A DNA stretch of 64,000 bases. It comes from Hyphococcus luteus. Its GTDB lineage: Bacteria > Pseudomonadota > Alphaproteobacteria > Caulobacterales > Parvularculaceae. Below, piece after piece: positions 32,055-48,974 of the stretch. The notes beneath the pieces were generated by a model. That model searched no databases. It was given only the letters and a program-made list of their open reading frames with translations, and had not been told where the DNA came from. A program made the position numbers and the translations under genes. Each line of letters starts with the position of its first letter. The first letter of the stretch is position 1. The DNA is taken from positions 124,001 through 188,000 of the forward strand of contig NZ_PJCH01000010.1 of assembly GCF_002943565.1 (NCBI RefSeq), read 5' to 3'.

Positions 32055-33674
32055 TCAAGTCGGCAAGCATGATCCATATTGATCGCGCAGCTTCTTCTTA
32101 TCTATCTTCCCTGTCGCTGTTAGCGGCACCTCTGCGAAGATAACGGCGTCCGGAAGCCACCATTTTGCAAAATGCGGCTCGATATGGTCCAGGACCTCCT
32201 GATCCGACAGGGCGGCTCTATTATGTGTTTCAACGACGAGAATTGGACGCTCTTCCCATTTTGGATGCTTCACGCCGACGACAGCGGCGATTCGAATGTC
32301 CGGGTGAGAGACGGCCGCATTCTCGATGTCGATGGAACTGATCCATTCGCCGCCGGATTTGATGACGTCTTTGCTGCGGTCAGTAATGCGCAGGAAGCCT
32401 TGCGAGTCGATCGTGGCGATGTCGCCGGTGTCGAACCATCCGTCTGAATCAAGCGCGGATTTCTCCGCCCGGTAATAGCGTTCAATCGTCCATGGGCCGC
32501 GAACAAGAAGCGCACCAGAGGTTTCGCCGTCATTCGGCAACGCCTTGCCATCGTCGTCGACGATCTTGAGTTCAATGCCGAATTGCAGACGGCCCTGACG
32601 GGTCCAGATGACGTCGTTCAACTCTTTTTCACCGCGCGCCGCCAGTTTGGGCGTTGGCGTCGCGACGACGCCGAGCGGGCTGGTTTCGGTCATGCCCCAG
32701 ATCTGGCGAACTGCGACGCCGTATTTGTCCTGGAAGGTTTCCGCCATGGCGCGGGGCACGGCCGATCCGCCGATGATGATGCGTTCCAGCGTTTCTGTGG
32801 TTTCGCCTGTACGTGCAAGATGGTCGAGATACATGGTCCATATGGTCGGCACGCCCCCGGAAAAGGTGACGCCTTCGTTTTTGATAAGCTCCTGAAGACT
32901 GGCGCCATCCATCTTTTCGCAAGGCAGCACGATCTTGCAGCCATTGATCGCGGCAGCGAAAGGAAGGCCCCAGGCTGTCGCGTGATAAAGCGAAGAGCAG
33001 GGCATGACGCAGTCAAATGCGGAAAAATTGAAAGCGCCGGGCAGGCCGGCGGCGAGGCCGTGCAGCACGACAGACCGGTGGCTGTAGAGAACGCCTTTGG
33101 GATCGCCGGTCGTTCCCGATGTGTAGCACAAGAACGCTCCGGCGTTTTCATCAAAGGCGGGCCAGACGATTTCCTCGTCCTGATCGGCGATAAGATCTTC
33201 GTATCTCGCCGCATTGAGTTCGCCGTTTACGGAGGAGGCGTCTTCCGACAGCACAATAAAAGTATCGATGGAGGAAAGCTGCGGCCTCAGGCGTTCGACC
33301 AGCGCGGCGAAAGACTTGTCAAACATCAAAATTCGGCTGCCCGCATGATTGATGGTGTAGGCGAGCTGTTGCTCTGAAAATCTGGGATTGGCCGTATGCA
33401 AAACGGCTCCAATGCCGGGAACGGCGTAAAATAACTCAAGATGCCGGTGCGTGTTCCAGGCAAGAGAGGTGACGCGTTCTCCGGGCGCTACTCCTTGCGT
33501 TTTGAGCATCTGTGCGCATTTCGCCGTGCGGCGGCGCAATCCGGCGTAGTCATAGCGATGCAAAGGTTCGTCTACGAGTCGGGAGACGATTTCCCTGTCG
33601 CCATGCGCGTTGGCCGCGTAGTCCAGAATGCCGCTGACCATCAGCGGCGAACGTTGCATGAGCCCGTCAAGCAC
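32055..33674 (-). CDS. AMP-dependent acyl-CoA synthetase
   Basis: A 539-residue ANL-family ligase. The P-loop is [20 protein letters not shown], the adenine motif is near [10 protein letters not shown], and [20 protein letters not shown] and [15 protein letters not shown] form the hinge and A8 motifs. [10 protein letters not shown] supplies the catalytic Lys. Length and motifs fit medium- or long-chain fatty-acid or aryl-acid CoA ligases. It begins at a GTG with GGGAAG upstream, 175 bp after the TonB receptor in the same direction. It probably activates the acid released in the island's pathway. Confidence 0.92.
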
Positions 33675-33849
33675 GGTTTCTTCCCAAATTTTTTTACATT
33701 TGCAGAGTGCTTAGTAGATCAGGCCATGCAGTTTACATAGCAAATCCGGTCGTCTTCCGGAAAATTGCACGCCGGCTTCTGCCGGGGTGAGGGAATGTGA
33801 GCGGAACGGGGGAGGAAGCGCTCCGCTCACATCTGGTCAATCCAGGCGC

Positions 33850-36099
33850 TTAAAACTGAACGGTTATCGTTCCGCCAAAAGTGCGCGGTGGATTGTAGTT
33901 TTCATAGCCGAAACCGAGGCTCGTCAGATTGACGCCTTGAACCTTATAAGCTTCGTCAAAGATGTTTTTGGCCCAGAGCGCGGCTTCCCAGCTTCCGTCC
34001 TCAGCGCCGACAGCGAGCCGGCCGTTCCATAACGTGAAACTGTCAGACGCGATTAGCGGATCGTTGAGCGCGTCCTTGAAGGTGGAGCCGGAATAGCGGC
34101 CATCGATCTGGATGATTCCGCGCAATCCGGGAGAGATCACGCGTTCATAACGCGCCAGGGTGTTGAAGGTGACGCTGGGCGCATTGGGGAATTCGTTGCC
34201 CTTCGGCGCCGGGCCGGAGAGGGCGACAAACTGGCCCAATTCAGAATTGAGAAGTCCGAGCCCGACCGTCAGCGTCAACCCTTCAATTGCCGGCGGCGCC
34301 AATGTCGCTTCGAGATCGGCGCCATACAGCGTCGCTTCATCAACGTTGCCGAGGCGTTGGAACGGGACTGCGCCCGACTGGTCGCGGATGAAGGTCTGGA
34401 TGTCGGAATAGTCGTAGTAAAACCCGCTCGCGGCCAGCCGCAGGGCGCCGTTCGCGGTCTGGTGCTTTACGCCGGCTTCATAAGAGACCAGGCTTTCCGG
34501 TTCGAAGGGCTGGAAGGAGCCGCTGTTTGTGGCGAAGCCGAAAAAGAAGCCGCCCGATTTCACGCCGCGCGAGGCGCTGACGTAAAGCAGCGTTGAAGGG
34601 AGGGGCTTCCAGTCGAGCCCGGCTTTCCAGGAGAGGTTCGTGTCTTCCGCTTTAAGGGCGTCCGCCGCAGCGAGCGTAATTTGAGGCGTCGGGCCTGGCG
34701 AGCAGGTGAGGCTGATCAGGCAACTCGTGCCGAACGGATTGTCGTCAAAGACGCGCGCCGTGTATTCTTTTTCCTCCCAGGTGAGCCGGAGGCCGCCGAT
34801 AACGGATAGCGTGTCGGTCAGCGCGTATTCGCCGTGGATAAAACCGGCGACTGAATCCGTCGTCTGGTCGCCAAAGCCGCTTGTGCGGGTTTGGAAGAGG
34901 ACGTCTGCATAGCCGGTGGATCCGACGACGATGTGATCGTGCGACCAGAAAGCGCCTACGAGCCAGTCAACGCTCTCATTGAGATTGCCGGCGAGCCTGA
35001 GTTCTTGCGAATATTGCCGGACGTCTGTGGTCGGCAGGAATTCAAGCGCCGTTAGCGGCGAGGCATCGAGATCGTTATAGGCTTCACGATAGTGATCGAT
35101 GAAGCCGGTGACGCTGGTCAGTTCCGCGCCGCCAAGGTCGAATACGCCGCGAAGCGTCGCGCCGATCTGTTTGGCGTCGTAAAACTGCCGATCCGACCAG
35201 TCGCCTGTGTAAGGGTCGCCGTCAGGATCGCTGTAGCCGAAAAAGTCTGTACAGGTTGGGTCGGTTTCATTTTCCGCAATGGCGGCGCACGCAAAACTCG
35301 GCGGGTTTGTATAGTCTACAGCGCCGAAAAACGCGCCCTGACCAAGTCCGGAATTGTTTGAGTAGCCTTCGACTTTCAACAGAATGTCCGCGCTGTCTCC
35401 CGGCATCCAGCGAAGTTGTGCGCGGCCGAGCGCGATGTTGCGTTCGCCGATATCGTCGTCGGCCGCGCGGTTGAAATAATAGCCCTCCCACTGGCGGATG
35501 ACCTTGGCGCCGAGGCGAATGGCGAGTTCTTCGTTGACCGGAATATTGGTCACGCCCTCGACTTCGAGCGTGTCGTAATTGCCATAGCTAGCGGACAGCC
35601 GGGTCAGGGGGGCGTCGAAATTCGGTTTCGCCGTGATGAAGTTGACGGCGCCCGCTGTTGAGTTGCGGCCGTAAAGCGTGCCTTGCGGGCCCTTCAGAAC
35701 TTCGATGCGCTCAAGGTCGAAAAAGTCGAAAGCAAGAAGCCCAAGCGAGGAGAGATAGACTTCATCGATGTAAACGCCGGCGCTCGGGTTGTTGGTGTTG
35801 CTGAAATCATTGAGTCCGACGCCGCGAATGGTGATCACCGGCAGGGTGCCGGGCGCCTGTTCGCGAATGTCGACATTCGGGACAAAAGTCGCGATGTCGC
35901 GCATTTCGAGGACGCGCGCGTCCTGAAGCGTTTGTCGGCTGATCGCAGTCACGGCCGCGCCGACGTCGAGAATGTTCTGCTCGCGCTTTTGGGCCGTTAC
36001 CACGATCACGTCGCCGGAAGTCGATTGTTGTGCTTGCGCGCCGGCGCTTGCTGTAAGCGCGGCGGCGCAGACGGAAGCCGTCAGGATAGTCTTGCGCAT
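33850..36099 (-). CDS. TonB-dependent outer-membrane receptor (first)
   Basis: A 749-residue receptor. After the signal peptide (cleavage near SAGAQA) come the TonB box region DVIVVTAQKREQN, the plug domain (TLPVITIRGVGLNDF, VLKGPQGTLYGRNSTAGAVN) and a 22-strand barrel ending in TFGGTITVQF. This Sphingomonad/Caulobacter-type receptor class imports bulky hydrophobic or aromatic substrates. It lies with the ligase gene in one unit, and an operator-like dyad is 84 bp upstream. The gene is divergent from the second receptor. Confidence 0.94.
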   Translation of the reverse strand: MRKTILTASVCAAALTASAGAQAQQSTSGDVIVVTAQKREQNILDVGAAVTAISRQTLQDARVLEMRDIATFVPNVDIREQAPGTLPVITIRGVGLNDFSNTNNPSAGVYIDEVYLSSLGLLAFDFFDLERIEVLKGPQGTLYGRNSTAGAVNFITAKPNFDAPLTRLSASYGNYDTLEVEGVTNIPVNEELAIRLGAKVIRQWEGYYFNRAADDDIGERNIALGRAQLRWMPGDSADILLKVEGYSNNSGLGQGAFFGAVDYTNPPSFACAAIAENETDPTCTDFFGYSDPDGDPYTGDWSDRQFYDAKQIGATLRGVFDLGGAELTSVTGFIDHYREAYNDLDASPLTALEFLPTTDVRQYSQELRLAGNLNESVDWLVGAFWSHDHIVVGSTGYADVLFQTRTSGFGDQTTDSVAGFIHGEYALTDTLSVIGGLRLTWEEKEYTARVFDDNPFGTSCLISLTCSPGPTPQITLAAADALKAEDTNLSWKAGLDWKPLPSTLLYVSASRGVKSGGFFFGFATNSGSFQPFEPESLVSYEAGVKHQTANGALRLAASGFYYDYSDIQTFIRDQSGAVPFQRLGNVDEATLYGADLEATLAPPAIEGLTLTVGLGLLNSELGQFVALSGPAPKGNEFPNAPSVTFNTLARYERVISPGLRGIIQIDGRYSGSTFKDALNDPLIASDSFTLWNGRLAVGAEDGSWEAALWAKNIFDEAYKVQGVNLTSLGFGYENYNPPRTFGGTITVQF

Positions 36100-36182
36100 G
36101 TTCCCTCCCTTGCGCCCGAATGTCGGGTTGCTGTCCGTCTGTTGCGCTTCTTGCCGGCGCGTGGACGGGCTGTTTTACAATA

Positions 36183-36197
36183 TGTCGATTATTGACT
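36183..36197. promoter_or_regulatory. Island operator site A
   Basis: TGTCGATTATTGACT, 13 of 15 matches to TGTCAATnATTGACA. It lies 84 bp upstream of the minus-strand TonB receptor. It is identical over the first 14 bases to site F in front of the MFS gene. Confidence 0.6.
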
Positions 36198-36420
36198 TAA
36201 TGTCTGATGAAAGGCAACTGTGAAAATCCACAGCGCCTGCGATTCCTTGGCTTGCCAGCCATTATGCGCTGGCGCCGGCGAGGCAAGGTCTGGCGCATTT
36301 TCCGAGTAATATGTGGAAAATAGGGGCGCCGCCGACGGCCCGCGGCGTCTTTTCAGTAGGGCGCTGGCGTGTCGCAGCGCTGAAAATTACGTGAGGAAAT
36401 CTCTCCGCTGTCTTTCTATT

Positions 36421-36435
36421 TGTGAATTATTGACA
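36421..36435. promoter_or_regulatory. Island operator site B
   Basis: TGTGAATTATTGACA, one mismatch to the dyad consensus TGTCAATnATTGACA. It lies 85 bp upstream of the plus-strand TonB receptor. Its TTGACA half could double as a -35 element. Confidence 0.6.
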
Positions 36436-36519
36436 TACTATCGTTTGCATAACAGTCATAATTGACGACGCGCGGGCGGCGAACGCGCGAACAGCGCCGG
36501 CGTGTAAGGGAGGCGGTAG

Positions 36520-38754
36520 ATGAGACTGGGTAATTGGTTTGCGGGCGGCGTGGCTCTGGGGGCGCTTTCGCTGGCGAGCGGCGGCGCGGCGGCGCAGGCG
36601 GAAGCTGCCGCTGGCGCTCCGGATATTGACGCGTCGGCCGCCGAAAGCGATCTGATCGTCGTCACGGCGCGCCGCCGTGAAGAGCGTCTGTCGGATGTGC
36701 CCGCGTCGGCCGCGGTGCTCTCTGCCGACTATCTTCAGGAGAGGGGCGGGCCGCGATCCGCCAAGGATCTTCTTGCGGGCCAGGCGGGCGTGCGTTTCTT
36801 CGATACGACCTCGCCCGTCAATTCCGAAGTGTCCATCCGCGGTTCTTCGACAGCGCGCGCGACAAACGCCGATCCGAGCGTGGGGCTTTATCGTGATGGC
36901 GTTTACATTGGCGGCGGCACGGTTGGCGGGCGCAGTTTTTCCCGCCTTGATATTTTCGATGCAGAGCGTGTTGAGGTGCTGCGCGGCGTGCAAGGGGCTC
37001 TTTACGGGCGCAATGCAGTCGGCGGCGCCGTCAACTTGATCACGGCGAAACCGAAATTCGAAAACAGCGGTTATCTCGATCTTCGTTACACGACGCAGAC
37101 GAAAGGAAAAGAAGGCCAGCTTGTGCTGAACGCATCGCCTTCGGACGAATGGGCGTTTCGTGTCGGCGTCGACGGCGTTCATCAAAATGAAGGCTTTTTC
37201 TATAATCCGAGCAATCACGTTTATTTCGACCGACAGAAGGGATTGGGATATAGGGGGCAGGTCCGCTACAAAAATGACCGGCTTGACGTCACGCTTCTTG
37301 GCGAGCGTCAGAATCTCGATGTGCCGGCGATCACCTATCGCGTCGTCATCGCGCCTGGGCCGATCTTTCCCCTCGGCTTCGTCCAGCCGCCTTATGAATA
37401 TGACCACAGCACGGAGCCTTTTGCGCATCAGGAAATCAACGCCGGCGGTCTTTCAATCGAATATGATCTTGGCTGGGCGACATTGCATTCGAACACGTTG
37501 ATCCGTCAGCGCAATTCCGAATATACGTTTGACGCCGACGCCATCACGCCTGAGCGCGCGCTTGAAGCGTATCTGAATGGGGAGGTGATTTTTCCGCTTG
37601 GCGGTGAAAGTTACGTCAACCAGCGCGATGAAACGAGGACGATCACCGAGGTCGCGCATCTGACCGGAACACTGTTCGATGATCGCGTCGTCTGGCTGGG
37701 CGGTTTTGAATATCTCACGCAAGACAGCAACGCCTTCCGCCTGACGCAAACGAACCAGATTATCAATGTGTTCACGCGGACCCGTGCGGATGTCGATCTG
37801 GAATATGATTCCTATGCGTTTTTCGGGTCTTTAGGGATAGACATCACGCCGCGGCTGAACCTGACGGGCGAACTGCGTTACACAAATGACGATCGTTCCA
37901 GCACGTCGAGCCTGATCGACGATTTCACCGGCATGGAAACAGGCGGGGATGCGTTCAATTTTTCCGCTGACCGGTCGTCGGACAATGTTTCCTATAATGC
38001 GACGCTGGCTTATCGCTTCGCCGATGACTGGCAAATCTATGGAAAAGTCGGGAGCAGCTATCGCGCCGGCGGGTTCAATGCGAGCCTCGGGACGCCGTTG
38101 CAGCCGATACCGGTCCCGGCAGCCTATAATGATGAAACCTCGACGGAGTATGAGGGCGGCGTAAAGGGCCAGTTTGGCGACTTATATGTAGCGATTGCGG
38201 GCTATGTCGCCGAGGCCGATGATCTCATCGTGCAGCGTGACAATGGGTGCAGCGTGACCCTGCCGGCGTGTCCGGTGGCCCCGACGGTTTTTCTCGATAA
38301 TGCGGGCAAGGCGAGAACCTGGGGCGTTGAAGCTGAATTCAACGGTTCATTTGAGATCGGCGCAGGGACTCTGACGGCGACTTTGGCGGCCTCTCGTCAG
38401 GACGGGAAAGTGACAGAGGGACCGTTAAGCGGCGTGCCGACGGCGCAGACGCCGAACTGGCTTGCCTCGTCGAACCTCAACTATCGTCAGCCGTTCAATG
38501 ACAAGATCGACATGTTCGTCAATTTGTTCGCTTACGGTCAATGGGGCGGAACACAGGAGCTGACGGTTCCGTCTCCGCCGCTTGATAATTTTCAAATCGT
38601 CAATCTTCGGTTCGGCGTAACCTATGACCGGATCGAGATCGCCGGTTTTGTCAACAATCTCTTTGATGAACAGTATCTCACTTTCCAGGAAGCGACGACG
38701 CAAAGGCTCGGAACGCCGCGTGCGACCGGCGTGGAACTACGTTACAGGTTCTGA
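36520..38754 (+). CDS. TonB-dependent outer-membrane receptor (second)
   Basis: A 744-residue receptor with signal peptide (LASGGAAAQ) and TonB box ESDLIVVTARRREE. The plug has EVSIRGSSTARATNADPSVG and VLRGVQGALYGRNAVGGAVN; the barrel ends ATGVELRYRF with the terminal Phe required for insertion. A GGGAGG ribosome site precedes the ATG. It shares the 420-bp intergenic region with the first receptor and is followed by the MmgE/PrpD gene in the same direction. Two different receptors suggest uptake of two related substrates. Confidence 0.94.
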   Translation: MRLGNWFAGGVALGALSLASGGAAAQAEAAAGAPDIDASAAESDLIVVTARRREERLSDVPASAAVLSADYLQERGGPRSAKDLLAGQAGVRFFDTTSPVNSEVSIRGSSTARATNADPSVGLYRDGVYIGGGTVGGRSFSRLDIFDAERVEVLRGVQGALYGRNAVGGAVNLITAKPKFENSGYLDLRYTTQTKGKEGQLVLNASPSDEWAFRVGVDGVHQNEGFFYNPSNHVYFDRQKGLGYRGQVRYKNDRLDVTLLGERQNLDVPAITYRVVIAPGPIFPLGFVQPPYEYDHSTEPFAHQEINAGGLSIEYDLGWATLHSNTLIRQRNSEYTFDADAITPERALEAYLNGEVIFPLGGESYVNQRDETRTITEVAHLTGTLFDDRVVWLGGFEYLTQDSNAFRLTQTNQIINVFTRTRADVDLEYDSYAFFGSLGIDITPRLNLTGELRYTNDDRSSTSSLIDDFTGMETGGDAFNFSADRSSDNVSYNATLAYRFADDWQIYGKVGSSYRAGGFNASLGTPLQPIPVPAAYNDETSTEYEGGVKGQFGDLYVAIAGYVAEADDLIVQRDNGCSVTLPACPVAPTVFLDNAGKARTWGVEAEFNGSFEIGAGTLTATLAASRQDGKVTEGPLSGVPTAQTPNWLASSNLNYRQPFNDKIDMFVNLFAYGQWGGTQELTVPSPPLDNFQIVNLRFGVTYDRIEIAGFVNNLFDEQYLTFQEATTQRLGTPRATGVELRYRF

Positions 38755-38857
38755 GCAAACCCGATGTGCGCCATGGCGAAAGCTGAAAAACATGAGCATG
38801 CTGCCATCAGCAAAAAGAGAGGTTTTTTTGTCGGATTTTCGCGTTTCAAAAAGCGCC

Positions 38858-40303
38858 ATGACGCGCAGAAGCGTGTTGGGCGGCGCGGCGGCGTTGGCTG
38901 GGGCTGGGCCGGCCTGCGCCCTGACTGAGAAAAGCCAAGTGCCGCCGGACAGCTTTACCAAAGCGATTGCAGAAGCCGTGACAGCGTTGCACGAGCGGGC
39001 GCCTGTTGAGGTCGAAGAGCGCGTCGCGTGGACCTTGCTCGATAATCTTGCGTCAATGCTTTATGCGGGAACGCTTGCGCGTCCGATAAGCGCGGCCGCC
39101 TATTTCGCAAAAAACACGCCCGGCCGCGATGCGGAGGTGTTGACGGCCGACCTTGTTTCTTCGCAGACAGGCGCCGCTTCTGCGATGGCGTATTTGCTGC
39201 ACGCCGCTGAAATCGACGACAGCGATCCACGCGGAGAGTTGCGCGCCTCGGCGGTCATCATGCCGGCCTGTCTTGCCGCGGCGCAGGCCGCCGATGCAAG
39301 CGGGCCCGAATTTCTTCGCGCGGCGGCGCTCGGCTATACGCTTCAGGGGCGCTTCGTTCAGCCGGTAGGGCCGGTTCAAACGCGGGGCTGGATGGCGTCC
39401 GGCGTATGGGGGCCGCCGGCCGCCGCCGCCGCCGTCTCTTTCCTTCGGGGCAGGCCGGCTGCGGACATCGCTTCGTCGATGTCGCTCGCGGGTTCCGCCG
39501 CTGGCGGCGCGTTTCAATATTATTTCGATCAGACGGACGAAAAGCGGATCATCGTCGCGCGCGCTGCGCGCGCTGCGATCGAAAGCGCCGATCTCGCCGC
39601 CTTGGGCGAGCACGGTGCGGCGCGCATTCTGGAGGGGCGCGCCGGGCTTTATCATCTTTTCGCTGGAACGGATGCGCCGGCGCTGGCGCCGCTGACGGAT
39701 GATCTTGGCCGGCTTGAGGGGCCGCTTTATCTGCGTCCCAAATTTTTCGCCGCATCGCATTCCATTATTCCGACGCTTGACGGCCTGCAGGCGGCGGCGC
39801 CTTCCGAGCTTGATCCGGCGTCGATTGAAAGCTTCATTGTTCGCGGCAACGCCTCCTGGAGCCGCATTGTGGCGCGCAAGATTAATGATTTTGAACCGCC
39901 GTCATCGCGGATCGGGGCGGCGCTCAATTTCAGCTTTGTCGTCGCCATGTGGCTGGTGCGCCGCTCGGTTCTGCCCGGCGATTACACGCAGGAAGCGTTC
40001 CGGGACCCGGACATTATTTCGCTGGCGCGGTCCGGATCGTTTGAAGTAAATGACAGCGATCATCTTTCCATTGAAATCGTGCTTCGTAACGGAGAAAGAA
40101 TTCACGCCGTCGCGCAGGATCCGGACCGCAATGCGCCTGCGCCGCTGAATGCAGTGCGGCGGATGAATAAATTCAACGCGCTTGCCGGATCGCGGCTGAA
40201 TGAAGAGCGAAAAGCAGATTTGCACGAGCACTGCATGGACCTGAAAAACGCACGCTCCATGCGGGCTTGGGTGCGGCATGCGCAAAAGCTCTGCGGCGCG
40301 TAG
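38858..40303 (+). CDS. MmgE/PrpD family protein with Tat-like leader
   Basis: About 481 residues from ATG 38858. The leader TRRSVLGGAAALAGAGPACA resembles a twin-arginine signal, uncommon in this normally cytoplasmic family. A TTG at 38828 with AGAGAGG upstream is an alternative start adding ten residues. Family blocks are VAWTLLDNLASMLYAGTLAR, HAAEIDDSDP and GLYHLFAG. MmgE/PrpD proteins include 2-methylcitrate dehydratase and cis-aconitate decarboxylase-fold enzymes. Its place behind a TonB receptor suggests a dehydratase- or decarboxylase-like step outside the cytoplasm, but that is inference. Confidence 0.8.
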   Translation: MTRRSVLGGAAALAGAGPACALTEKSQVPPDSFTKAIAEAVTALHERAPVEVEERVAWTLLDNLASMLYAGTLARPISAAAYFAKNTPGRDAEVLTADLVSSQTGAASAMAYLLHAAEIDDSDPRGELRASAVIMPACLAAAQAADASGPEFLRAAALGYTLQGRFVQPVGPVQTRGWMASGVWGPPAAAAAVSFLRGRPAADIASSMSLAGSAAGGAFQYYFDQTDEKRIIVARAARAAIESADLAALGEHGAARILEGRAGLYHLFAGTDAPALAPLTDDLGRLEGPLYLRPKFFAASHSIIPTLDGLQAAAPSELDPASIESFIVRGNASWSRIVARKINDFEPPSSRIGAALNFSFVVAMWLVRRSVLPGDYTQEAFRDPDIISLARSGSFEVNDSDHLSIEIVLRNGERIHAVAQDPDRNAPAPLNAVRRMNKFNALAGSRLNEERKADLHEHCMDLKNARSMRAWVRHAQKLCGA

Positions 40304-40311: not shown

Positions 40312-41427
40312 TCATTGTTCTTCAAGAAAGGCGTCGACCCGGTCAGCCGCGTTTGTGCGGATATTCATATAGAAGAGATTGTAGTCGAAAACGTGATAAG
40401 AGCCGTTCTTAGTCTGCCGGCTTTTAAAGCCGTCTATGTCTTCATTGAAATCGATCACCAGATATCCGTTTTCGCATCCGGCGCCGGTGAGGCGAGGGAG
40501 GAGCGCCGATAAGGCGCCGGGGTCCTGATTGCCCGAAAGCGCGCCGAGATTGTCGCTGGCGGGCGCGGTGCCGCCTGCTTTCCAGTTCAGCGGATTGACG
40601 CATAAGAGCGGGCGCCCGGCGACCGGCCGGTAGCCGCCGTCAAGCCAGATGAGGGCGCGTTCGTCGCGGCGCAGGTCGGGTTCGTTTTTTTTGCTGACCG
40701 TATTCCAGCCGATGATGCAGCGGGTCTGCCGGGCGTCGTCGCAAGGCGGCAGCCGGTCCGGTGCGAACGCTTCCGGCACGGGGCCCCCGACTGCATAAAC
40801 GGCGACAAGCCTGTCCATAAGGTCTGTGCCGAGGACGCGTTCTTCAAGAAGGCGCATGGCGTGATAACTGCCCTGGCTGTGGCTGGCGATGATGAAGGGC
40901 CGTCCGTCGTTTTTTTCACGGATAAAATTATCAAACGCTGCGGCGATGTCCTGATAGGCGAGATCAAGGGCATGTTCGCTGTTTTCGTTGAATGCAAGGA
41001 ACGTATAAAGCGTCGCCTGGCGATAGCGCGGCGCGAAGACGCGACAGCAACCGTTAAAAACGCTTGCCTGGCCTCGCAAGGTTCCCTCTTCGACGCTCAT
41101 GCGGCCTTCGCCGGAATTCTCATAAGGCGCGTTCCATCCGTCCTTTTTGAAATAGGTTGTCGGATGGATGAAAAAGACATCGGCTGCCGCTTCCGCCTGA
41201 TTATCTGCAATGCCTTCCGGCGTCTGATCGGCGTTGTCCTTGCGCTCCGGCAGCGCCGCCCAGGCGTCCGGCAAACGATAGTCCGGCGCCGGCGGGGCAA
41301 GGTCTGGCGAAAAATCATGGTCCGGTTTGAAAACCAGCCTTTGTGCGATTTTGGTTTCGTCATCTTCCTGCGACGAGCACGCGACGGCGAGCGCCGTCGC
41401 CAGCAAAGCTAGAACATGTTTTTTCAT
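40312..41427 (-). CDS. DUF3089 alpha/beta-hydrolase lipoprotein
   Basis: A 371-residue DUF3089 protein. The leader ends LAVAC (Cys17), so it is lipid-anchored. The family block ADVFFIHPTTYF and the nucleophile elbow ASHSQGSYHA with Ser184 mark an alpha/beta-hydrolase; WNTVSKKNEPD and CVNPLNWKA lie downstream. Such proteins are probable esterases. It is 38 bp downstream of the beta-lactamase-fold esterase gene on the same strand and converges with MmgE/PrpD. Confidence 0.85.
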   Translation of the reverse strand: MKKHVLALLATALAVACSSQEDDETKIAQRLVFKPDHDFSPDLAPPAPDYRLPDAWAALPERKDNADQTPEGIADNQAEAAADVFFIHPTTYFKKDGWNAPYENSGEGRMSVEEGTLRGQASVFNGCCRVFAPRYRQATLYTFLAFNENSEHALDLAYQDIAAAFDNFIREKNDGRPFIIASHSQGSYHAMRLLEERVLGTDLMDRLVAVYAVGGPVPEAFAPDRLPPCDDARQTRCIIGWNTVSKKNEPDLRRDERALIWLDGGYRPVAGRPLLCVNPLNWKAGGTAPASDNLGALSGNQDPGALSALLPRLTGAGCENGYLVIDFNEDIDGFKSRQTKNGSYHVFDYNLFYMNIRTNAADRVDAFLEEQ

Positions 41428-41465
41428 TACTGAGTCCTTGGTAGGCGGCGGGCGTGGATAGCGGT

Positions 41466-42776
41466 TTAATTCATGGCCTGATAGACGGCGGTCTTCAGCA
41501 TGTCGCGCAAGGGCAGCGTTCCCGATGGGAAAAGCTGGGTCATCAGCGTCGCCGACAAACCGGCCTCGGGAACCGCGAAAAAGGTCGTGCTTGCCGCCCC
41601 GCCCCAGGTGTATTCGCCTTTAAGGCCGGGTTTTTCGGCGGCCGCCGGCTCGGTCAGCACAGCGCCGCCAAGCGCCATCTCCATGCCGAGGCCGGACCCG
41701 CCCGAGGCGAACCCCATGAATTTCTGGAATGTGTCGCCGAGAACATCGGCGCCCACATGAGGCGCTGTCATTGTGCGGACGCTTTTGCGGCTCATGACGC
41801 GTGCGCCGCCAGCTTCACCGAACCCAGCAAGCATATCGGCGAAGCGGTGATAATCGCTGAGCGTGCATAAAAGTCCGGCGGAGCCGGATTCAGCGTAGGG
41901 CTTGGTCAGGAAAGGAGAGCCGGTCGCTGCTTCTGCGAGGATGAGGCTTCCTTCTTTTAATGCATACATGCTCGCAAGCCGTTCGGCTTTGGGTGCGGGC
42001 ACATAAAAATCCGCATCCTCCATGCCAAGCGGGTTGAAAATCCGTTCCTTTAAAAAGGCGCTGAAGCTCGCCCCCGTGACGCGCTCGACAACCAATCCCG
42101 CAATATCAGGGGAAATGCTGTAGAGCCATTGCGAGCCGGGCTGAAACTGCAGAGGGATTTTTCCGAGCCGGGCCGCGAATTCCGAAAGACCGGCGCTGAA
42201 TTCCGGATCGTAGACATATTTTGCTGAAACAAGGCCGGCCTTGCGGTAGAGAGGGGAAATCGGACCGGGATTCCAGCTATTGCTGAGGCCGGACGTATGC
42301 GTCAGCAGGTGAGCGACGCGCATGACGCCCGCAGGCTCCGACACGATCTTTTCGCCATCCTGTGAAACATAAACGGCGAGATCGGAAAATTCCGGAACAT
42401 AAGCGGTCACCGGATCATTGAGCGACAGCTTGTTGTCCTCGACCAGCAGCATGATGGCGGCGGCCGTAACCGGCTTGGTCATGGAATAAGCCCGATAGAT
42501 CGTATCCGGGGCGATGTTCTTGCCGGATGCGATGTCCGCCTTGCCCGCATAATGCTCGAAAAGCAGCTCGCCATGCTGAGATATGCGCACCGCGCCGCCG
42601 GGGATTTGGCCGCTTTCAATGAGGCCGTCGATCATCTCGCCCGCCGCGCTGAGGCGGCCGATGTCGAACATTCTGGCGGGCGACTTTTTCGCGACGCAGG
42701 AGGGCAGGGCGAGCGCAGTGAGGGGCGCTGACGCGGCGGCGGCGAGCGTGCTCCGGCGGGTGAAAAGCGCGGTCAA
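41466..42776 (-). CDS. Serine hydrolase, class C beta-lactamase fold (EstB-like), first
   Basis: A 436-residue enzyme. The leader TRRSTLAAAASAPLTALALP runs to a lipobox-like Cys27. The SxxK motif is SMTK (Ser98, Lys101) in YRAYSMTKPVTAAAIM, and LYSISPDIAGLVVERVTG holds the Tyr of the second motif. It is about 40 residues longer than AmpC and belongs with EstB-type esterases and D-aminopeptidase-like enzymes. An operator-like dyad is 17 bp before the start. Ester or lactone cleavage in the periplasm is the most likely job. Confidence 0.88.
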   Translation of the reverse strand: MTALFTRRSTLAAAASAPLTALALPSCVAKKSPARMFDIGRLSAAGEMIDGLIESGQIPGGAVRISQHGELLFEHYAGKADIASGKNIAPDTIYRAYSMTKPVTAAAIMLLVEDNKLSLNDPVTAYVPEFSDLAVYVSQDGEKIVSEPAGVMRVAHLLTHTSGLSNSWNPGPISPLYRKAGLVSAKYVYDPEFSAGLSEFAARLGKIPLQFQPGSQWLYSISPDIAGLVVERVTGASFSAFLKERIFNPLGMEDADFYVPAPKAERLASMYALKEGSLILAEAATGSPFLTKPYAESGSAGLLCTLSDYHRFADMLAGFGEAGGARVMSRKSVRTMTAPHVGADVLGDTFQKFMGFASGGSGLGMEMALGGAVLTEPAAAEKPGLKGEYTWGGAASTTFFAVPEAGLSATLMTQLFPSGTLPLRDMLKTAVYQAMN

Positions 42777-42792
42777 AAACCCCTCCCTGAAT

Positions 42793-42807
42793 TGTCAATA
42801 AATTTCA
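42793..42807. promoter_or_regulatory. Island operator site C
   Basis: TGTCAATAAATTTCA: the left half is perfect and the right half degenerate (three mismatches to TGTCAATnATTGACA). It lies 17 bp upstream of the first esterase gene. Confidence 0.4.
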
Positions 42808-42872
42808 TATTTATGATTTTTTCAGGAAAATATACGAAATATATCAGATTATCCACTGCTTTCTTGACTAAT

Positions 42873-42887
42873 TGAAAATAATTGACA
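42873..42887. promoter_or_regulatory. Island operator site D
   Basis: TGAAAATAATTGACA: the right half is perfect, with two mismatches in the left half. TTGAC at 42865-42869 may be a further half site next to it. It lies 125 bp upstream of the second esterase gene. Confidence 0.45.
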
Positions 42888-43011
42888 ATATGACGGCGCA
42901 CCGGCCGCAACGCCGATTCTTCCTGCTCGCCTTGTACGCCGGCAACCCAAAAGCATTCCCGATCGCGGCTCTTCCGGCGGGGATGGAATGCAATCAAACA
43001 AGGAGGAAACA

Positions 43012-44223
43012 GTGAGGTTCAAAAGCAAGCATTTTGGAGGAGTGGGAGCGCTATGCGGCGCGCTACTGGCGCTGGTCTTTGCAACGCAGGCCGCCGCGCA
43101 AACCAACGCTAAATGTCCGGATGATCCTTTGCCGTCGGGTTATGATTGGACCGACGTCAAAGCTGCGTTGGAAAATTCACCTTTCCAGCGCGGGGGAATG
43201 ATCGTCTATCACAAGGGCGAGGTCGTTTATTGGACCGGCTTCGGTTGGTGGGACGGCCAAGGCTGCGATTACTTCATCAACAATCACAACTTTAATGTCG
43301 CGTCTTTGTCGAAAACCTTTACGGCGGCGGTGGCGATGGCGGTGGCGCAGGATCCGAATGTCAATTTTTCGTTGAACGATCTGGTGAAAGACCATATCAC
43401 AAACGCGACGTCGTTGAACGCAAGTCAATTCGACGATAACGGGACGGCGCGTCTCGTTTACGACCACATGACGATCAACGATCTCATTACCATGATGACG
43501 GGACATGAGACCGTCAGCGCTTGGCCGATTGGTCTGACTTCATGCATTAACAATCCGTTTGTTTCGTTTGAAACATGCGGGGAGGATATGATCGCCGCCG
43601 ACATTGCGGAAGATGACGATCCGAACAACAACAGCGCTTATGTTTACGCGCCCGGCGAAGCTTTCTCTTACGGTCCAATGTCGTGGCAGATTCTCGGACT
43701 TGCGGTGGCTAACGCCGTCAATGATGACTTTACGACAATTCTTGAGGACTATTTGACCGGTCCCTGCAACCTTACGGACACGATTGTGAAGCGCCCCAAT
43801 AATGAATGGGCGGCAGGCGGATTTGAAACCGATCTGTTCGATGGCGGCGCCTTCGCGCAGGCGCTGCTGAGCGGCGAGTGCGGAAACAATCACACGCTTT
43901 TCAATGCGGCTTCTCTTGCTTCATTGAATGAAGTCACGGTTCCGTTGCAGAGCGGATCTGTTCCGACGGTGAGCAGCCCGATCAAGGATCTCGATCTCGA
44001 TTATGCGCGCGGCCAGTGGGTGTTCGACCAGGGCGGCTCGAAAATCTATCTGGGCGTCGGCGCCTGGGGCGCGGTTACGTTTTATTCGCCCGACAAGGAC
44101 TGGGCCGCCTATATCCATCTCGATGACCATCTTTTGACGGGATATATCGACGCGACGGATCTCATCATCAAGTCGGGCGGGCTCGCGGACCTGATTGATA
44201 TTCAGGCGAACAACAATCCGTAA
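43012..44223 (+). CDS. Serine hydrolase, beta-lactamase fold, second
   Basis: A 403-residue exported protein. I chose GTG 43012 because AGGAGG lies six bases upstream; an in-frame ATG at 42988 has no such site. The signal peptide ends near TQAAAQ. The SxxK motif is SLSK (Ser98, Lys101) in NVASLSKTFTAAVAM, the same residue numbers as in the neighbouring esterase. FSYGPMSWQILGLAVANAV replaces the usual YS/AN motif by Tyr-Gly-Pro. The two proteins are only distantly alike, so this is not a recent duplication. A hairpin terminator follows. Confidence 0.82.
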   Translation: MRFKSKHFGGVGALCGALLALVFATQAAAQTNAKCPDDPLPSGYDWTDVKAALENSPFQRGGMIVYHKGEVVYWTGFGWWDGQGCDYFINNHNFNVASLSKTFTAAVAMAVAQDPNVNFSLNDLVKDHITNATSLNASQFDDNGTARLVYDHMTINDLITMMTGHETVSAWPIGLTSCINNPFVSFETCGEDMIAADIAEDDDPNNNSAYVYAPGEAFSYGPMSWQILGLAVANAVNDDFTTILEDYLTGPCNLTDTIVKRPNNEWAAGGFETDLFDGGAFAQALLSGECGNNHTLFNAASLASLNEVTVPLQSGSVPTVSSPIKDLDLDYARGQWVFDQGGSKIYLGVGAWGAVTFYSPDKDWAAYIHLDDHLLTGYIDATDLIIKSGGLADLIDIQANNNP

Positions 44224-44252
44224 TCGCTGAAAGCCTCGAGGCGAATTGTTCG

Positions 44253-44279
44253 GGGAGCGTCGGCAAGGCCGGCGCTCCC
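44253..44279 (+). terminator. Terminator of the second esterase gene
   Basis: A 12-bp stem GGGAGCGTCGGC / GCCGGCGCTCCC with one G:T pair and loop AAG, 30 bp after the stop codon. The T-tract behind it is weak (TCTGCATTTT). Confidence 0.65.
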
Positions 44280-44344
44280 TCTGCATTTTCGGCGCCGGCG
44301 TTAAAATTTGCAATGTTTGGCAAACAGTTGCGTAAATATAAGAA

Positions 44345-44359
44345 AGTCAATTATTTTCT
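44345..44359. promoter_or_regulatory. Island operator site E
   Basis: AGTCAATTATTTTCT: the core GTCAATTATT is kept and the right half decayed (four mismatches). It lies 43 bp upstream of the first GntR gene, where an autoregulatory site is expected. It is the weakest of the six. Confidence 0.35.
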
Positions 44360-44402
44360 CTCGCCATTTCAGGGACCCACAGCAGGCAGATAAAGTCAGG
44401 GC

Positions 44403-44957
44403 GTGACCAAAAAACCAACCACAACGCGTCAGTCGCCAAAGTCCTCGAGGACGGCTTCAGGCAAAAGCGGGCCAGGCCCTTCGCTGGTCGCGGACGAGCT
44501 GCGCGCGCTGATTGTCGATGGGTCCTTCAAGGCGGGCGCCCGCATCACCGAGCGCGCGGTCGCCGAGCGGTTTCATTGCACGGCGGCGACGACCCGCGAA
44601 GCGTTTCACCTTCTGGAAAAGCAGGGCGCGATCATCGTGTCTGCGCGCCGCGGCGCCCGGGTGATCGACGACCAATACGCACCGCCCGCGGAGCTGTTTA
44701 TCGTGTGGGACCGTCTGCGTTGGCTGCTTGGCGAGGAGCTGCGCCGTCATGGCGCGGTGATTGAACAGCCGCGTGCTGAAGGAAACGCGGAAACGAAACC
44801 ATCGCGCCGGCTCGTTCTGGTTGAAGAGCAGCTTGAGCAACTTGGGGAGGCGTCTAAAAATGCACGCCTGGCCAGGGCGATGGCGCGCATCGCCCTGCAT
44901 GTGTCCATCGTTGCGCCGGAGCGCCTTGGCGAAATCGAAGAAAGTCTGAACCGATGA
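44403..44957 (+). CDS. GntR-family regulator (short form)
   Basis: A 184-residue protein starting at GTG. A basic disordered tail (TKKPTTTRQSPKSS) leads into a winged helix: LVADELRALIVDGSFKAGAR, ITERAVAERFHCTAATTREA and HLLEKQGAIIVSARRGARVI, the FadR-subfamily pattern. The C-terminal effector domain is only about 90 residues and lacks the Asp/His set that binds metal in FCD domains. It overlaps the next GntR gene by 4 bp. The two may act as a heteromer; the short one may be a degenerate partner. Confidence 0.8.
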   Translation: MTKKPTTTRQSPKSSRTASGKSGPGPSLVADELRALIVDGSFKAGARITERAVAERFHCTAATTREAFHLLEKQGAIIVSARRGARVIDDQYAPPAELFIVWDRLRWLLGEELRRHGAVIEQPRAEGNAETKPSRRLVLVEEQLEQLGEASKNARLARAMARIALHVSIVAPERLGEIEESLNR

Positions 44958-45730
44958 CGGCGGAGCTTGCACCGGATATCAGGGCTTTCGTTGCGCGGGC
45001 TGAAACCATCGCTGGCGTGGCGCAGCCGCCGCCGCCGACTTTGCCCGGTTATATCGCGGCCTGGATTGCAGATCGGATTCAGTTTGGCGACTTCAAGCCG
45101 GGCGAGTCGATTCGGGAGCTGGCGGTGGCGGATCATTTTGATGTCAGCCGCGGGCCGGTGCGCGAAGCGTTGCGCCTCCTGGACAGGGACGGGCTTGTCA
45201 CGCTTCGAGGGCGAAAAGGCGCAATCGTGCGCAAGCTGACGGACGACGAGCTGGAGGCGCTTTTTCATATTCGCGCTGAGTTGTTCGCCGCCCAGGCGGG
45301 CCTTGCCGCGTCCGCGAGCGAGCGCAGCGCCGCCGCGCTCGCCGCCATTGCGGACGGCGTCGCTCTGCTGACGCGGTTGTCGATCGCGAAGGAAGCGACT
45401 GTCGGCGATTACATCACAGTGCGCCGCGCTGTTTCCGTTTTGATCACCAGCCTGTCCGGCGCGCGGTATCTCGGGCGGATGTCTGCGGTGTTTGAGCGCG
45501 AAGTCGCCGTGCTATGGGCCAGCATTTTAAGTCCAGAGCGCCGCCGTAGATCGGCGGCGCGCTGGTCGGCGCTATGCAAGGCGATCGAAAATGCGCGCGT
45601 TGGCGAGGCGGAGCGTCTGGCGCGGGATCTGGTGCTCGACAGTCTTGCGGAGATCCGCCGGCGCGGCGAAACGGGCGAGACGCCGGAGGCGTTGCTGGAA
45701 AAATCGTCAAAGGCCGGGGCTTCCGACTAG
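44954..45730 (+). CDS. GntR-family regulator with FCD-like domain
   Basis: A 258-residue FadR-type regulator. The winged helix runs from IAAWIADRIQFGDFKPGESI through VSRGPVREALRLLDRDGLVT to RGRKGAIVRKLTDDELEAL. The helical ligand domain follows. Positions that usually carry metal-binding His are other residues (DYITVRRAVSVL, SARWSALCKAIENA), so it probably senses its ligand without metal. It is the prime candidate to bind the TGTCAATnATTGACA dyads of the island. It is translationally coupled to the short GntR gene. Confidence 0.87.
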   Translation: MTAELAPDIRAFVARAETIAGVAQPPPPTLPGYIAAWIADRIQFGDFKPGESIRELAVADHFDVSRGPVREALRLLDRDGLVTLRGRKGAIVRKLTDDELEALFHIRAELFAAQAGLAASASERSAAALAAIADGVALLTRLSIAKEATVGDYITVRRAVSVLITSLSGARYLGRMSAVFEREVAVLWASILSPERRRRSAARWSALCKAIENARVGEAERLARDLVLDSLAEIRRRGETGETPEALLEKSSKAGASD

Positions 45731-45812
45731 GGCCTTGCTGGCCGGCAGAGCTTGGCGCATGGGCGCGGGACAGGATCCGCCTGCGCTGCATTTCCATACG
45801 AGACATAACAAA

Positions 45813-45827
45813 TGTCGATTATTGACA
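45813..45827. promoter_or_regulatory. Island operator site F
   Basis: TGTCGATTATTGACA, one mismatch to TGTCAATnATTGACA. It lies 125 bp upstream of the MFS gene and matches site A over 14 bases. Confidence 0.6.
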
Positions 45828-45951
45828 AAAACTCCGGGGCGGCGTTTCATGGGGGCAAACAGAACAAGACGGCCGGAACGCGCGGGCGATGAAACACCGT
45901 CAGCACGGCTTGGGCTGCATGCCGCAAGATAGACGTTCATTAGGAGAGGAC

Positions 45952-47256
45952 ATGAGAATGGCGGCGAGCGGCAGACCGGAGCCCGGCGCAATCCCGATGT
46001 CCGGCGCGGCGTCCGGCAAGGCCGCAGGAACGTCCTTGCCGTATTTCCTTGGCGTCATGTTTCTGGTGTCGACCCTGAACATGGCCGACCGGCAGATTAT
46101 CGGCATCGTGGCCGAGCCCATCAAAAATGAATTCGGCCTTTCGGACACCATGCTGGGGCTGGTGGGCGGAACCGCCTTTGCGCTCGTTTACCCGACATTG
46201 GGGCTTGCGATTGCACGCGCCGCCGACCGGCTCAATCGCCGCAACATCCTTGCGGCGTGTCTGGCGGTCTGGAGCGCCATGACGATGTTGTGCGGCGTGG
46301 CGCCCGGCTTTTGGTATCTCGCCGTCGCGCGCACCGGAGTCGCTGCCGGCGAGGCGGGATATGCGCCATGCACACATTCGCTTATCGCGGATTCCGTTTC
46401 GCCGGAGCGGCGCTCGTCTGCGTTTTCCGTCCTCGTTGTGGGCATCTCGGCCGGCGGTCTTGTTGCGTCGCTGATCGGCGGCCTCGTGGCGGAAACCCAT
46501 GGCTGGCGCGCGGCGTTTATGGCGCTTGGCGCACCCGGATTGATCGTGTCCGCGCTGGTCTATTTCACGCTTAAGGAGCCGGTTCGCCTGGGCGCCGCCG
46601 CCAGGGCGGGGCGCGCGGTTAAGGCGTTCGGCGCATTGATGAAATCACCGCCGTTCCTGCTCTGCGTCGCCGGATCTGCGTTTCACTTGATGGTGGCCTA
46701 TGGGCTCGCTGCTTTCGGCATTGCGTATTTCGTGCGCGCTCACGGCATGTCGGTCGGTGCGGCGGCGGCGATCCTGGGCGCATCAGCGGCGATTGCGGGT
46801 GCGTTAGGCAGCCTGATTGGCGGCGCGGCCGGGGATTTTCTCGCCAAACGCGATCGCCGCTGGCTCGCCTGGTGGCCCGCCGTGACGGTTTTCGCCGCGA
46901 CCTTTGTCGGCGTGCCCGCTTTTCTGGCGCAAGGTCTTGTGTTTGCGCTCATCGGCGCGGTGGCGGCGGTGTTTTGCAACACGCTTTATCAGCCGGCCTC
47001 CTACGCGCTTGTCCAGGGAGTTGCGGATCCGCAAGAGCGCGCGAGCGCCGCCGCGTTGATGATCTTTATACAGAATTTAGTGGGGCTTGGGCTTGGGCCG
47101 CTGGTGATCGGTTTGATCAGCGATGCGCTGGCGCCGTCCGTTGGCGTTGCGGCGCTCGGCATGGCGATCGCCTTTTCATTTTTGTTCAACATACCGTCCG
47201 CCATCGCCTTTTATTTTGCAGGCAAAACCTGGGGACGGGCCGACAAACCATGTTGA
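45952..47256 (+). CDS. MFS transporter (spinster-like)
   Basis: A 434-residue twelve-helix transporter from ATG 45952, preceded by AGGAGAGG. FLVSTLNMADRQIIGIVAEP and FGLSDTMLGLVGGTAFALVY are typical of the spinster-like MFS group, with the loop motif ARAADRLNRRNILAACLAVW. Members move organic acids, lipids or lignin-derived compounds. It is the first gene of the MFS-TauD-SDR unit behind operator F and is the likely inner-membrane step after TonB-dependent uptake. Confidence 0.9.
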   Translation: MRMAASGRPEPGAIPMSGAASGKAAGTSLPYFLGVMFLVSTLNMADRQIIGIVAEPIKNEFGLSDTMLGLVGGTAFALVYPTLGLAIARAADRLNRRNILAACLAVWSAMTMLCGVAPGFWYLAVARTGVAAGEAGYAPCTHSLIADSVSPERRSSAFSVLVVGISAGGLVASLIGGLVAETHGWRAAFMALGAPGLIVSALVYFTLKEPVRLGAAARAGRAVKAFGALMKSPPFLLCVAGSAFHLMVAYGLAAFGIAYFVRAHGMSVGAAAAILGASAAIAGALGSLIGGAAGDFLAKRDRRWLAWWPAVTVFAATFVGVPAFLAQGLVFALIGAVAAVFCNTLYQPASYALVQGVADPQERASAAALMIFIQNLVGLGLGPLVIGLISDALAPSVGVAALGMAIAFSFLFNIPSAIAFYFAGKTWGRADKPC

Positions 47257-47280
47257 ACGCCTTAGAAATCGAGGCAACAA

Positions 47281-48162
47281 ATGATGAATCTAAAGCAAAA
47301 ACCGTTGAACGCTCCCGCTGTTGGGGGCATGGAGACGGACAGCTATCGTTACATCGCCGTCAACAAATTTACGCCGGTGATCGGCGCCGAGATTGGCGGC
47401 GTCAATCTTGGCAAAGAGCTTTCCGGCGCCGTCATTGAGGAAATTCGCCGCGCCTTCCTCGAAAATCTGGTGATTTTCTTCCGCGGCCAGGACCTGACGC
47501 CGGATCAGCATGTCGCCTTCGGCAAGCTCTTTGGCGAACTGCATGCGCATCCGGCGGCCCCGAGCGAAGCCGGCCATCCGGAACTGATGGTCATCGCCGC
47601 CGATGAGAATTCTTCCAGAGCCAATGGAGAAACATGGCACACGGACGTATCCTGCGAGCCCGAGCCGCCGCTGGGCAGCATTCTTTACATCAAGCAAACC
47701 CCGCCTTGCGGCGGCGATACGCTGTTCGCAAACATGTATGCGGCCTATGACGCCTTGTCGCCGCAGATGAAAACCTATCTCGATGGCATGACTGCGATCC
47801 ATGACGGCGAGCATGTTTATCGAGGGCTATATGCGGATTTGGGCGTCAAGGATAAGCCGCAATATCCGCGCGCCCATCATCCGGTCGTGCGCACGCATCC
47901 GGAAACGAAGCGCAAATGCCTTTATGTGAATGCCGGCTTTACGACTGCGATCGACGGTGTTCCTCCTGACGAAAGCGATGCGATCTTGCGTTTCCTGATC
48001 CGGCATGCGGCGCATCCGGCGTTTCAGTGCCGCTTTCGCTGGGCGCCGGGCTCCCTTGCTTTTTGGGACAATCGCTGCGCGCAGCATCATGCGGTGTGGG
48101 ACTACTGGCCCCATCGCCGTTACGGAAACAGGGTCACAATCAAGGGCGACCGTCCTTTTTAA
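47281..48162 (+). CDS. TauD/TfdA family 2-oxoglutarate-dependent dioxygenase
   Basis: A 293-residue Fe(II)/2-oxoglutarate dioxygenase. The iron ligands are His120 and Asp122 in TWHTDVSC and a His at 269-270 in CAQHHAVWDYW. Arg280 or 284 in RRYGNRV would bind 2-oxoglutarate. FLENLVIFFRGQDLTPDQHV is the family's N-terminal block. Members hydroxylate sulfonates, aryloxyalkanoates or alkyl sulfates next to a heteroatom, releasing an aldehyde or phenol. It starts 24 bp after the MFS gene and 23 bp before the SDR gene. Confidence 0.92.
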   Translation: MMNLKQKPLNAPAVGGMETDSYRYIAVNKFTPVIGAEIGGVNLGKELSGAVIEEIRRAFLENLVIFFRGQDLTPDQHVAFGKLFGELHAHPAAPSEAGHPELMVIAADENSSRANGETWHTDVSCEPEPPLGSILYIKQTPPCGGDTLFANMYAAYDALSPQMKTYLDGMTAIHDGEHVYRGLYADLGVKDKPQYPRAHHPVVRTHPETKRKCLYVNAGFTTAIDGVPPDESDAILRFLIRHAAHPAFQCRFRWAPGSLAFWDNRCAQHHAVWDYWPHRRYGNRVTIKGDRPF

Positions 48163-48185
48163 CGGAACGGGAAAGGGCTGGCGCC

Positions 48186-48974
48186 ATGTCAAAGACCTTC
48201 GCCGACTGCATTGTCGCTGTAACGGGCGCGTCGACAGGGCTTGGGCGCGCCATCGCCCAAGGGGCTGCAGCGCGCGGGGCTGAGGCCGTCATTATCAATT
48301 ATCACGCGAACGCCGCAGAGGCGGATGAGACTGCAGCGCTGGTCGAGGAGGCGGGCGCTAAAGCGGTCCTGGTCCGGGGGGATGTCGGCGATGACGAGGA
48401 CTGCAAGAAAATCGCCGCCGCCGCTGAGCCCTTCGGGCGTATCGATGCGTTGTTCAACAATGCAGGCGTCACGGCGGTCGCGTTGGACCAGAGCGATCTT
48501 GGCGCCTTGAACAGCGAAGACTTCATGCGCCTTTATCGCGTCAATGTCGTCGGCGCCTATCAGATGACGCGGGGCGCGCGGCCGCTGCTCGAAGCGGCGC
48601 CCAAGCGCGCGGCGGTCGTCAATACGTCGTCAATCGCCGCTCTTACGGGCGTCGGGTCTTCCATCGCCTATGCGGCGTCAAAAGGCGCGCTGACCACGAT
48701 GACGCTGTGCCTGGCGCGCGTGCTGGCGCCGAAAATCAGGGTCAATGCGGTTTGTCCCGGATTTATTGATACGCCATGGTTTGCAAAGAGGCTTGCCGCC
48801 GATCAGATGGACGACTTGCGTGAGCACATCAAAAACGCGGTTCCGTTAAAAGAGGCCTCAACGGCGGAAGATATTTGCGGCGCCGCATTGTTCCTGGCGT
48901 CGCCGGATGCGCGCCACGTGACCGGAGAGACCCTGCTTGTCGACGCCGGCGCGCATTTGGCGTTTTCGTTTTAA
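48186..48974 (+). CDS. Short-chain dehydrogenase/reductase
   Basis: A 262-residue classical SDR from ATG 48186 (MSKTFADCIV). TGASTGLG at 13-20 binds NAD(P), NNAG follows, NTSSIAALTG supplies Ser and YAASK the catalytic Tyr and Lys; VCPGFIDTPW is the usual PG motif. As the last gene of the MFS-TauD-SDR unit it probably oxidises or reduces the product of the dioxygenase. The frame stays open upstream but that part lies in the TauD gene. Confidence 0.92.
   Translation: MSKTFADCIVAVTGASTGLGRAIAQGAAARGAEAVIINYHANAAEADETAALVEEAGAKAVLVRGDVGDDEDCKKIAAAAEPFGRIDALFNNAGVTAVALDQSDLGALNSEDFMRLYRVNVVGAYQMTRGARPLLEAAPKRAAVVNTSSIAALTGVGSSIAYAASKGALTTMTLCLARVLAPKIRVNAVCPGFIDTPWFAKRLAADQMDDLREHIKNAVPLKEASTAEDICGAALFLASPDARHVTGETLLVDAGAHLAFSF

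Follow-up and report, generated by a model that had tools for sequence, protein, structure and literature searches.

Genes and candidate operator sites of the island

The window, that is the whole 64,000-nucleotide stretch of DNA analysed here, harbors a 16.9-kb gene island. On the minus strand, it encodes TonB-dependent receptor 1 (33850..36099; PF00593/PF07715) together with an AMP-binding enzyme of the acyl-CoA ligase type (32055..33674; PF00501), and esterase 1 (41466..42776; PF00144) together with a DUF3089 protein (40312..41427; PF11288). The plus strand encodes TonB-dependent receptor 2 (36520..38754; PF00593/PF07715) and an MmgE/PrpD protein (38624..40303; PF03972/PF19305, first match from residue 116), esterase 2 (42988..44223; PF00144), and the two regulators GntR1 (44403..44957) and GntR2 (44954..45730). 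These are followed by an MFS transporter (45889..47256; PF07690), a TauD/TfdA-family dioxygenase (47281..48162; PF02668) and a short-chain dehydrogenase, SDR (48027..48974; PF00106 from residue 62 and PF13561 from residue 67), all on the plus strand. The listed starts of the MmgE/PrpD protein and the dehydrogenase are probably too early. The gene names of the preliminary description agree with Pfam, except that Pfam does not give "esterase" for the two PF00144 proteins of the beta-lactamase superfamily; we retain the word as a label. A tRNA-Phe gene is found at 29500-29575 and then a tyrosine integrase at 29702 (region 29500-31057), and on its opposite side the island is bordered by a second integrase (49658-50920). 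We did not find a second copy of the tRNA-Phe end within the window.

Six sites resembling the dyad TGTCAATnATTGACA lie 16-100 bp ahead of the listed starts of the island units. All are given on the plus strand, and each is compared with its counterpart in a paralogous island of the same genome, described below. Dyad A (36183..36197; TGTCGATTATTGACT), before the receptor 1-ligase unit, has two mismatches to TGTCAATnATTGACA and is identical in the paralogous island at 15/15 positions. Dyad B (36421..36435; TGTGAATTATTGACA), before the receptor 2-MmgE unit, has one mismatch and 14/15 identical positions. The weak dyad C (42793..42807; TGTCAATAAATTTCA), before esterase 1-DUF3089, has three mismatches and 15/15 identical positions. 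Dyad D (42873..42887; TGAAAATAATTGACA), before esterase 2, has two mismatches and 13/15 identical positions, its counterpart TGACAATTATTGACA being nearer the consensus. Site E (44345..44359; AGTCAATTATTTTCT), before the GntR pair, is weak with one good half; it has four mismatches and 13/15 identical positions, and its counterpart has three mismatches. Dyad F (45813..45827; TGTCGATTATTGACA), before MFS-TauD-SDR, has one mismatch and 14/15 identical positions. All six sites are thus present where the preliminary description had placed them, and its rating of C and E as weak agrees with their three and four mismatches as against one or two in A, B, D and F; in the window, neither the unit of C nor that of E has a strong site. 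The mirror placement that it reported for A and B holds to within a base, the distances to the receptor start codons being 83 and 84 bp, not 84 and 85 bp. As a conserved feature, the mirror spacing was rejected, the distances in the paralogous island being approximately 94 and 81 bp. The distance between A and B is 238 bp, and that between the starts of C and D, which lie between the divergent esterase genes, is 80 bp.

Scanning the window at up to three mismatches gave six matches (A, B, C, D, F and one at 54116), a number reached by none of 100 shuffles (mean 1.12). At up to two mismatches to TGTCAATnATTGACA, the island holds four matches (shuffle mean 0.033) and the remaining 47.1 kb of the window none. 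We also searched the 4.92-Mb genome for TGTCAATnATTGACA at up to one, two and three mismatches. The five places at up to one mismatch, with approximately 0.22 expected by base composition, are B, F and positions 23,484, 30,013 and 39,616 of contig C12. The motif, for which the preliminary description had proposed a genome-wide frequency check, is thus not evenly spread, and its good matches are confined to two islands. At up to two mismatches there are 14 places, nine of them in the two islands, which make up 0.78% of the genome, and five outside (C1:133714, C2:34256, C10:307284, C10:344571 and C12:1093593); the one examined among these, C2:34256, falls within an ORF. With TGTCGATTATTGACA as query at up to two mismatches, eight of 13 places are in the islands; of the five others, C2:34256, C2:49911 and C9:492843 lie in called ORFs, C7:450596 in an ORF of 72 aa whose status is doubtful, and C2:178116 (window position 54116) between ORFs. 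At up to three mismatches, the 82 places found differ little from the 73 that composition predicts (backwards control 14), so that frequency alone is uninformative at such looseness, and the weak sites C and E rest on conservation.

The second island (C12:18,254-39,406) was located via the motif on another contig of the same genome. It encodes paralogues of MFS, GntR2, GntR1, esterase 2, esterase 1, DUF3089, MmgE, TonB2, TonB1, ligase and TauD, with 67-89% amino acid identity to the window island proteins; the window island SDR has no match in it. It also has genes for a MaoC-type protein, an acyl-CoA dehydrogenase and a second ligase. Its dyads are located at MFS (19,661), in the esterase 1/esterase 2 spacer (23,484), at TonB2 (30,013), at TonB1 (30,284) and at the relocated TauD unit, which has a dyad of its own, a perfect palindrome (39,616). 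The six site windows are 13-15/15 identical between the islands, in four spacers that are 46-67% identical overall; non-site 15-bp windows of these spacers have a mean of 6.5 identical positions, and 40 of 792 reach 13. A third copy, in genome G019 of the same genus, is 96.5% identical over 16,953 bp (window 32052-48974), and outside this copy the 40 kb fetched from G019 matches the window in short pieces only. From these sequences we infer that the island module probably travels as one unit.

The GntR1 and GntR2 proteins

GntR1 (184 aa) is predicted to consist of a winged helix and a short tail of four helices (model pLDDT 86). The winged helix is matched by PF00392 (7.5e-12), no PF07729 (FCD) match was found at E 0.001, and among the 50 PDB matches listed for the model the query TM-score does not exceed 0.54. 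By these results, GntR1 belongs to the GntR superfamily through its winged helix and lacks the FCD domain of the FCD subfamily. In GntR2 (258 aa), the winged helix is matched by PF00392 at 3.4e-14 (52.7 bits, cut-off 27), and PF07729 gives a weak match under its cut-off (3.8e-4; 21.3 bits, cut-off 24.3). In the GntR2 model (pLDDT 82), the winged helix is joined to an FCD-like bundle, and the predicted fold is close to that of VanR-group FCD regulators (4p9f_A, TMt 0.86; 3ihu_A, 0.87).

We found the two genes adjacent and in the same order at all nine pair loci, down to 42% identity for GntR2 and 30% for GntR1 at the most diverged. They overlap by 4 bp in the window, C12, G019 and G265 and are separated by 1 bp in G091, G311 and L037; for G791 and G803, the translations point to a probable GntR2 start that likewise gives a 4-bp overlap.

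Arg45 of Atu1419 from Agrobacterium fabrum is described as reading an operator guanine and is termed typical of the GntR family (PMC7797058). We matched this position by the shared S-R-x-P-V-R pattern, with Atu1419 itself left out of the alignment. GntR2 keeps the arginine at 9/9 loci, in a helix 3 that reads SRGPVR(E/D)A throughout (for G803 from its translation). GntR1 has it at none of the nine: the residue is Ala in the window, G265 and G019, Ser in C12, Gln in G091, and His in G311, L037, G791 and G803.

Distribution of the pair and the dyad

Among 398 genomes of the order, five encode a GntR2 relative at E 1e-25 (G000, G019, G265, G091 and G311); the best few candidates per genome were scored, and a diverged GntR2 could escape. 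A gene-blind search of the same genomes for exact TGTCRATTATTGACA gave ten places in six genomes and none for the backwards control. Nine of the ten places are in islands with the GntR1-GntR2 pair, and the tenth, in G396, is inside an unrelated coding gene, by eye that of a PHP-type phosphoesterase. Five of the six genomes are precisely the five with a GntR2 relative, the word being absent from 392 of the 393 without one.

In the genus of G311, five of 101 genomes have a GntR2 relative, namely G311, G091, G806 (contig L037), G791 and G803, those of G791 and G803 being diverged pair loci. Among 42 genomes in the genus of G265, the only relative is that of G265 itself, whose proteins are the same as those of Hyphomonas oceanitis (L036). 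A first scan of named genomes, with patterns from the N-terminal end, confirmed no relative; a second gave 12 loci, with the pair in L036, L037 and L038 (Phenylobacterium). GntR2 had no match at E 1e-15 in the plasmid collection.

A whole-genome search for TGTCRATNATYGACA in nine genomes picked for a GntR2 relative gave 73 places. All 11 exact places are at pair loci, and G533 and G555, which have no separate pair, have no exact place. Of the 62 places with one mismatch, seven are at pair loci and 55 outside the islands; 39 of the latter are centred, by eye, on CGAT[G/C]ATCG. Good sites are hence confined to the gene cluster, as in a local regulon, both for sites with at most one mismatch in the window genome and for exact sites in the relatives.

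At up to two mismatches to TGTCAATnATTGACA, each of the nine pair loci examined holds two to five dyads: five in C12 and G791, four in the window and G019, three in G265 and G803, and two in G091, G311 and L037. First-order Markov shuffles (60 for each locus) have means of 0-0.033. Eleven loci with distant GntR relatives (G533, G555 and L039-L047) have no dyad at this threshold. G791 has a one-mismatch dyad 38 bp ahead of gntR1, and G803 a two-mismatch dyad in the spacer that separates gntR1 from a TonB gene, positions that autoregulation would lead one to expect.

It should be mentioned that in G265 a dyad with one mismatch to TGTCRATNATYGACA, AGTCAATAATCGACA, is located in the spacer ahead of a gene cluster on contig 20 (L073:6779-9700). 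The cluster encodes proteins of transglutaminase-like and asparagine-synthase type, and genes for a prolyl oligopeptidase, a TonB receptor and a LuxR protein are close by. By this gene set, it looks like a lasso-peptide cluster. The dyad is either a chance match or a remote member of the regulon. Two related islands encode a PF03601 protein (conserved hypothetical 698; L071:10956-11966 and L030:11061-12110) that is not among the genes of the window island.

G533, from another order of the class, encodes a 482-aa protein with two GntR domains (L061:9078-10526; two PF00392 stretches, 1.2e-30). The Arg45 equivalent is His in the first half and Arg in the second. Over 231 aa, the second half shares 35% identity with GntR2; the first resembles the GntR2 helix at least as much as that of GntR1. 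A DUF3089 relative (44% over 345 aa) is located one gene away. We did not find a dyad of this kind at the locus; the fusion thus speaks for a partnership of the two proteins, not for this operator. It is known from one genome that is 83% complete, and the family and the order of G533 comprise one genome each. G555 has a GntR2 relative, with no GntR1 relative among its called ORFs and no dyad.

Control of the island

The consensus of 19 sites has GT and AC 9 nt apart (GT-N9-AC), and we take this dyad as the operator. The preliminary description had likened it in size to the dyads of FadR-type regulators, but it is not typical of these: in FadR-subfamily operators, as described in PMC4494728, GT and AC are mostly 3 nt and in some groups 2 nt apart, with exceptions. 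The candidate operator of GntR2 therefore falls outside the spacing of 2-3 nt that marks the FCD subfamily. The misfit is either a new geometry or a warning that GntR2 reads its operator differently. In the YtrA subfamily, as described in PMC4494728, the conserved GT and AC of the operator stand well away from the centre of the palindrome, and the regulators have a short C-terminal domain. The wide spacing of the dyad and the short C-terminal domain of GntR1 resemble this account, whereas GntR2 has an FCD-like domain and the window island encodes no ABC transporter.

In sequence and predicted fold, GntR2 matches structures of the VanR group (Atu1419, McbR and AlkR). Atu1419 is reported to repress catabolic genes via several palindromes and to loop over two sites 190 bp apart (PMC7797058), compared with 238 bp between A and B here. 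The spacings of A/B and C/D might be compatible with tetramer looping of the kind reported for Atu1419. By the same account, Atu1419 acts as a single protein at a palindrome of 10 bp, ATGTATACAT, whereas the island has a gene pair and a 15-bp dyad. Its zinc ligands, three His and one Asn, are not evident in GntR2 when inspected by eye without Atu1419 in the alignment. In Escherichia coli, ExuR and UxuR are paralogous GntR-family regulators with a reported heterodimer and shared targets, and UxuR is said to work either as a homodimer or as a heterodimer (PMC9369180, PMC12842492). Going by these descriptions, they would be the nearest reported GntR heterodimer that we found. Likened to them, the pair described here differs in that one partner is short and without the base-reading Arg, and in that the genes overlap. 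A literature search of titles and abstracts found nothing on the GntR1-GntR2 pair, the dyad or the cluster.

It is well supported that the island has a regulon of its own. Chance similarity in AT-rich spacers is an extremely improbable account of the dyads: the genome count at three mismatches does agree with composition, but the Markov shuffles fall far short of the two to five dyads per pair locus, and the dyads are conserved between paralogues and across families; for A, B, D and F, chance is refuted. The matches might instead be nothing but -35 promoter boxes, as the right half includes TTGACA and, at 16-18 bp on one side, three of the 19 sites match TATAAT at 4/6 positions and one at 5/6. 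On either side at this distance, however, 15 of the 19 match at 3/6 positions or fewer, in a raw count without random control. The preliminary description had named this reading as one that would refute it; we find it very unlikely, since both halves are conserved and the exact 15-mer occurs in 6/398 genomes only. A regulator encoded elsewhere could also own the dyad, with the GntR pair as one target. Co-occurrence alone cannot separate regulator from target, site E ahead of the pair is weak, and regulator genes of other kinds lie close to the C12 island (TetR) and in the G265 stretch (LysR). We nevertheless regard an outside regulator as improbable, given that no other regulator recurs among the ORFs matched between loci (Pfam-scanned in part) and that the exact word is missing from nearly every genome of the order without a GntR2 relative. 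The suggestion in the preliminary description, control of the island by one or both GntR proteins, is supported, and by the simplest reading the GntR1-GntR2 pair very probably owns the dyad.

A harder question is which of the two proteins binds. GntR2 alone could bind the palindrome as an ordinary homodimer and control the island, with GntR1 as a decaying duplicate or a modulator that does not touch DNA. The operator is palindromic, and GntR2 has a full-length fold in which the canonical residues of helix 3 are retained. A variant half, TGTCGAT, is found in 11 of the 19 sites and never twice in one site, yet strict asymmetry of the half-sites had to be rejected as evidence that would prove a heterodimer: in G803 and G791 there are sites that carry TGTCGAT in both halves. 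The two halves can thus be alike, which a homodimer would permit. We consider the homodimer a real but rather doubtful possibility, because GntR1 is kept at every pair locus with its predicted winged helix intact, which is not expected of a decaying copy, and because the GT-N9-AC spacing is far off the FadR-subfamily norm given in PMC4494728.

Based on the constant pairing, the loss of Arg in one partner and the one fusion, we propose a GntR1-GntR2 heteromer, a claim that sequence comparison leaves evenly balanced. That the pair acts together on the dyad, likely as a heterodimer, as the repressor of the island is in our judgement an even call. In brief, the overlapping genes would yield both proteins, which would most likely form a heterodimer or a dimer of heterodimers on the 15-bp operator ahead of the island units. 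GntR2 would bring the canonical base-reading Arg and a helical sensor domain, and GntR1 a second winged helix without that Arg. We infer that the bound heteromer would repress, rather than activate, import through the two TonB receptors and the MFS transporter, ester cleavage, CoA activation and oxidation. Release may be brought about by a ligand, an intermediate of the ester substrate and perhaps an acyl or acyl-CoA product, and the weak site E may provide mild autoregulation of the pair. As to the inducer and the direction of control, we are guessing from the FCD precedent.

Just short of even confidence, we put forward tentatively that this is an obligate two-gene GntR regulator and the switch that belongs to a mobile island of ester catabolism, present twice in the genome. 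GntR1, half-blind in having neither the base-reading Arg nor an FCD domain, and a sensing GntR2 would pair as a heterodimer at a wide dyad, and one lineage would have fused this arrangement into one chain. The system would offer a compact regulon, with two proteins, approximately six sites per island and two islands per cell, for a catabolic system that is uncharacterised. The same word is found in two diverged islands of one cell, so that cross-talk or insulation between paralogous regulons is measurable. For the GntR family, it would be a natural case of how a dimer might split labour between unlike subunits.
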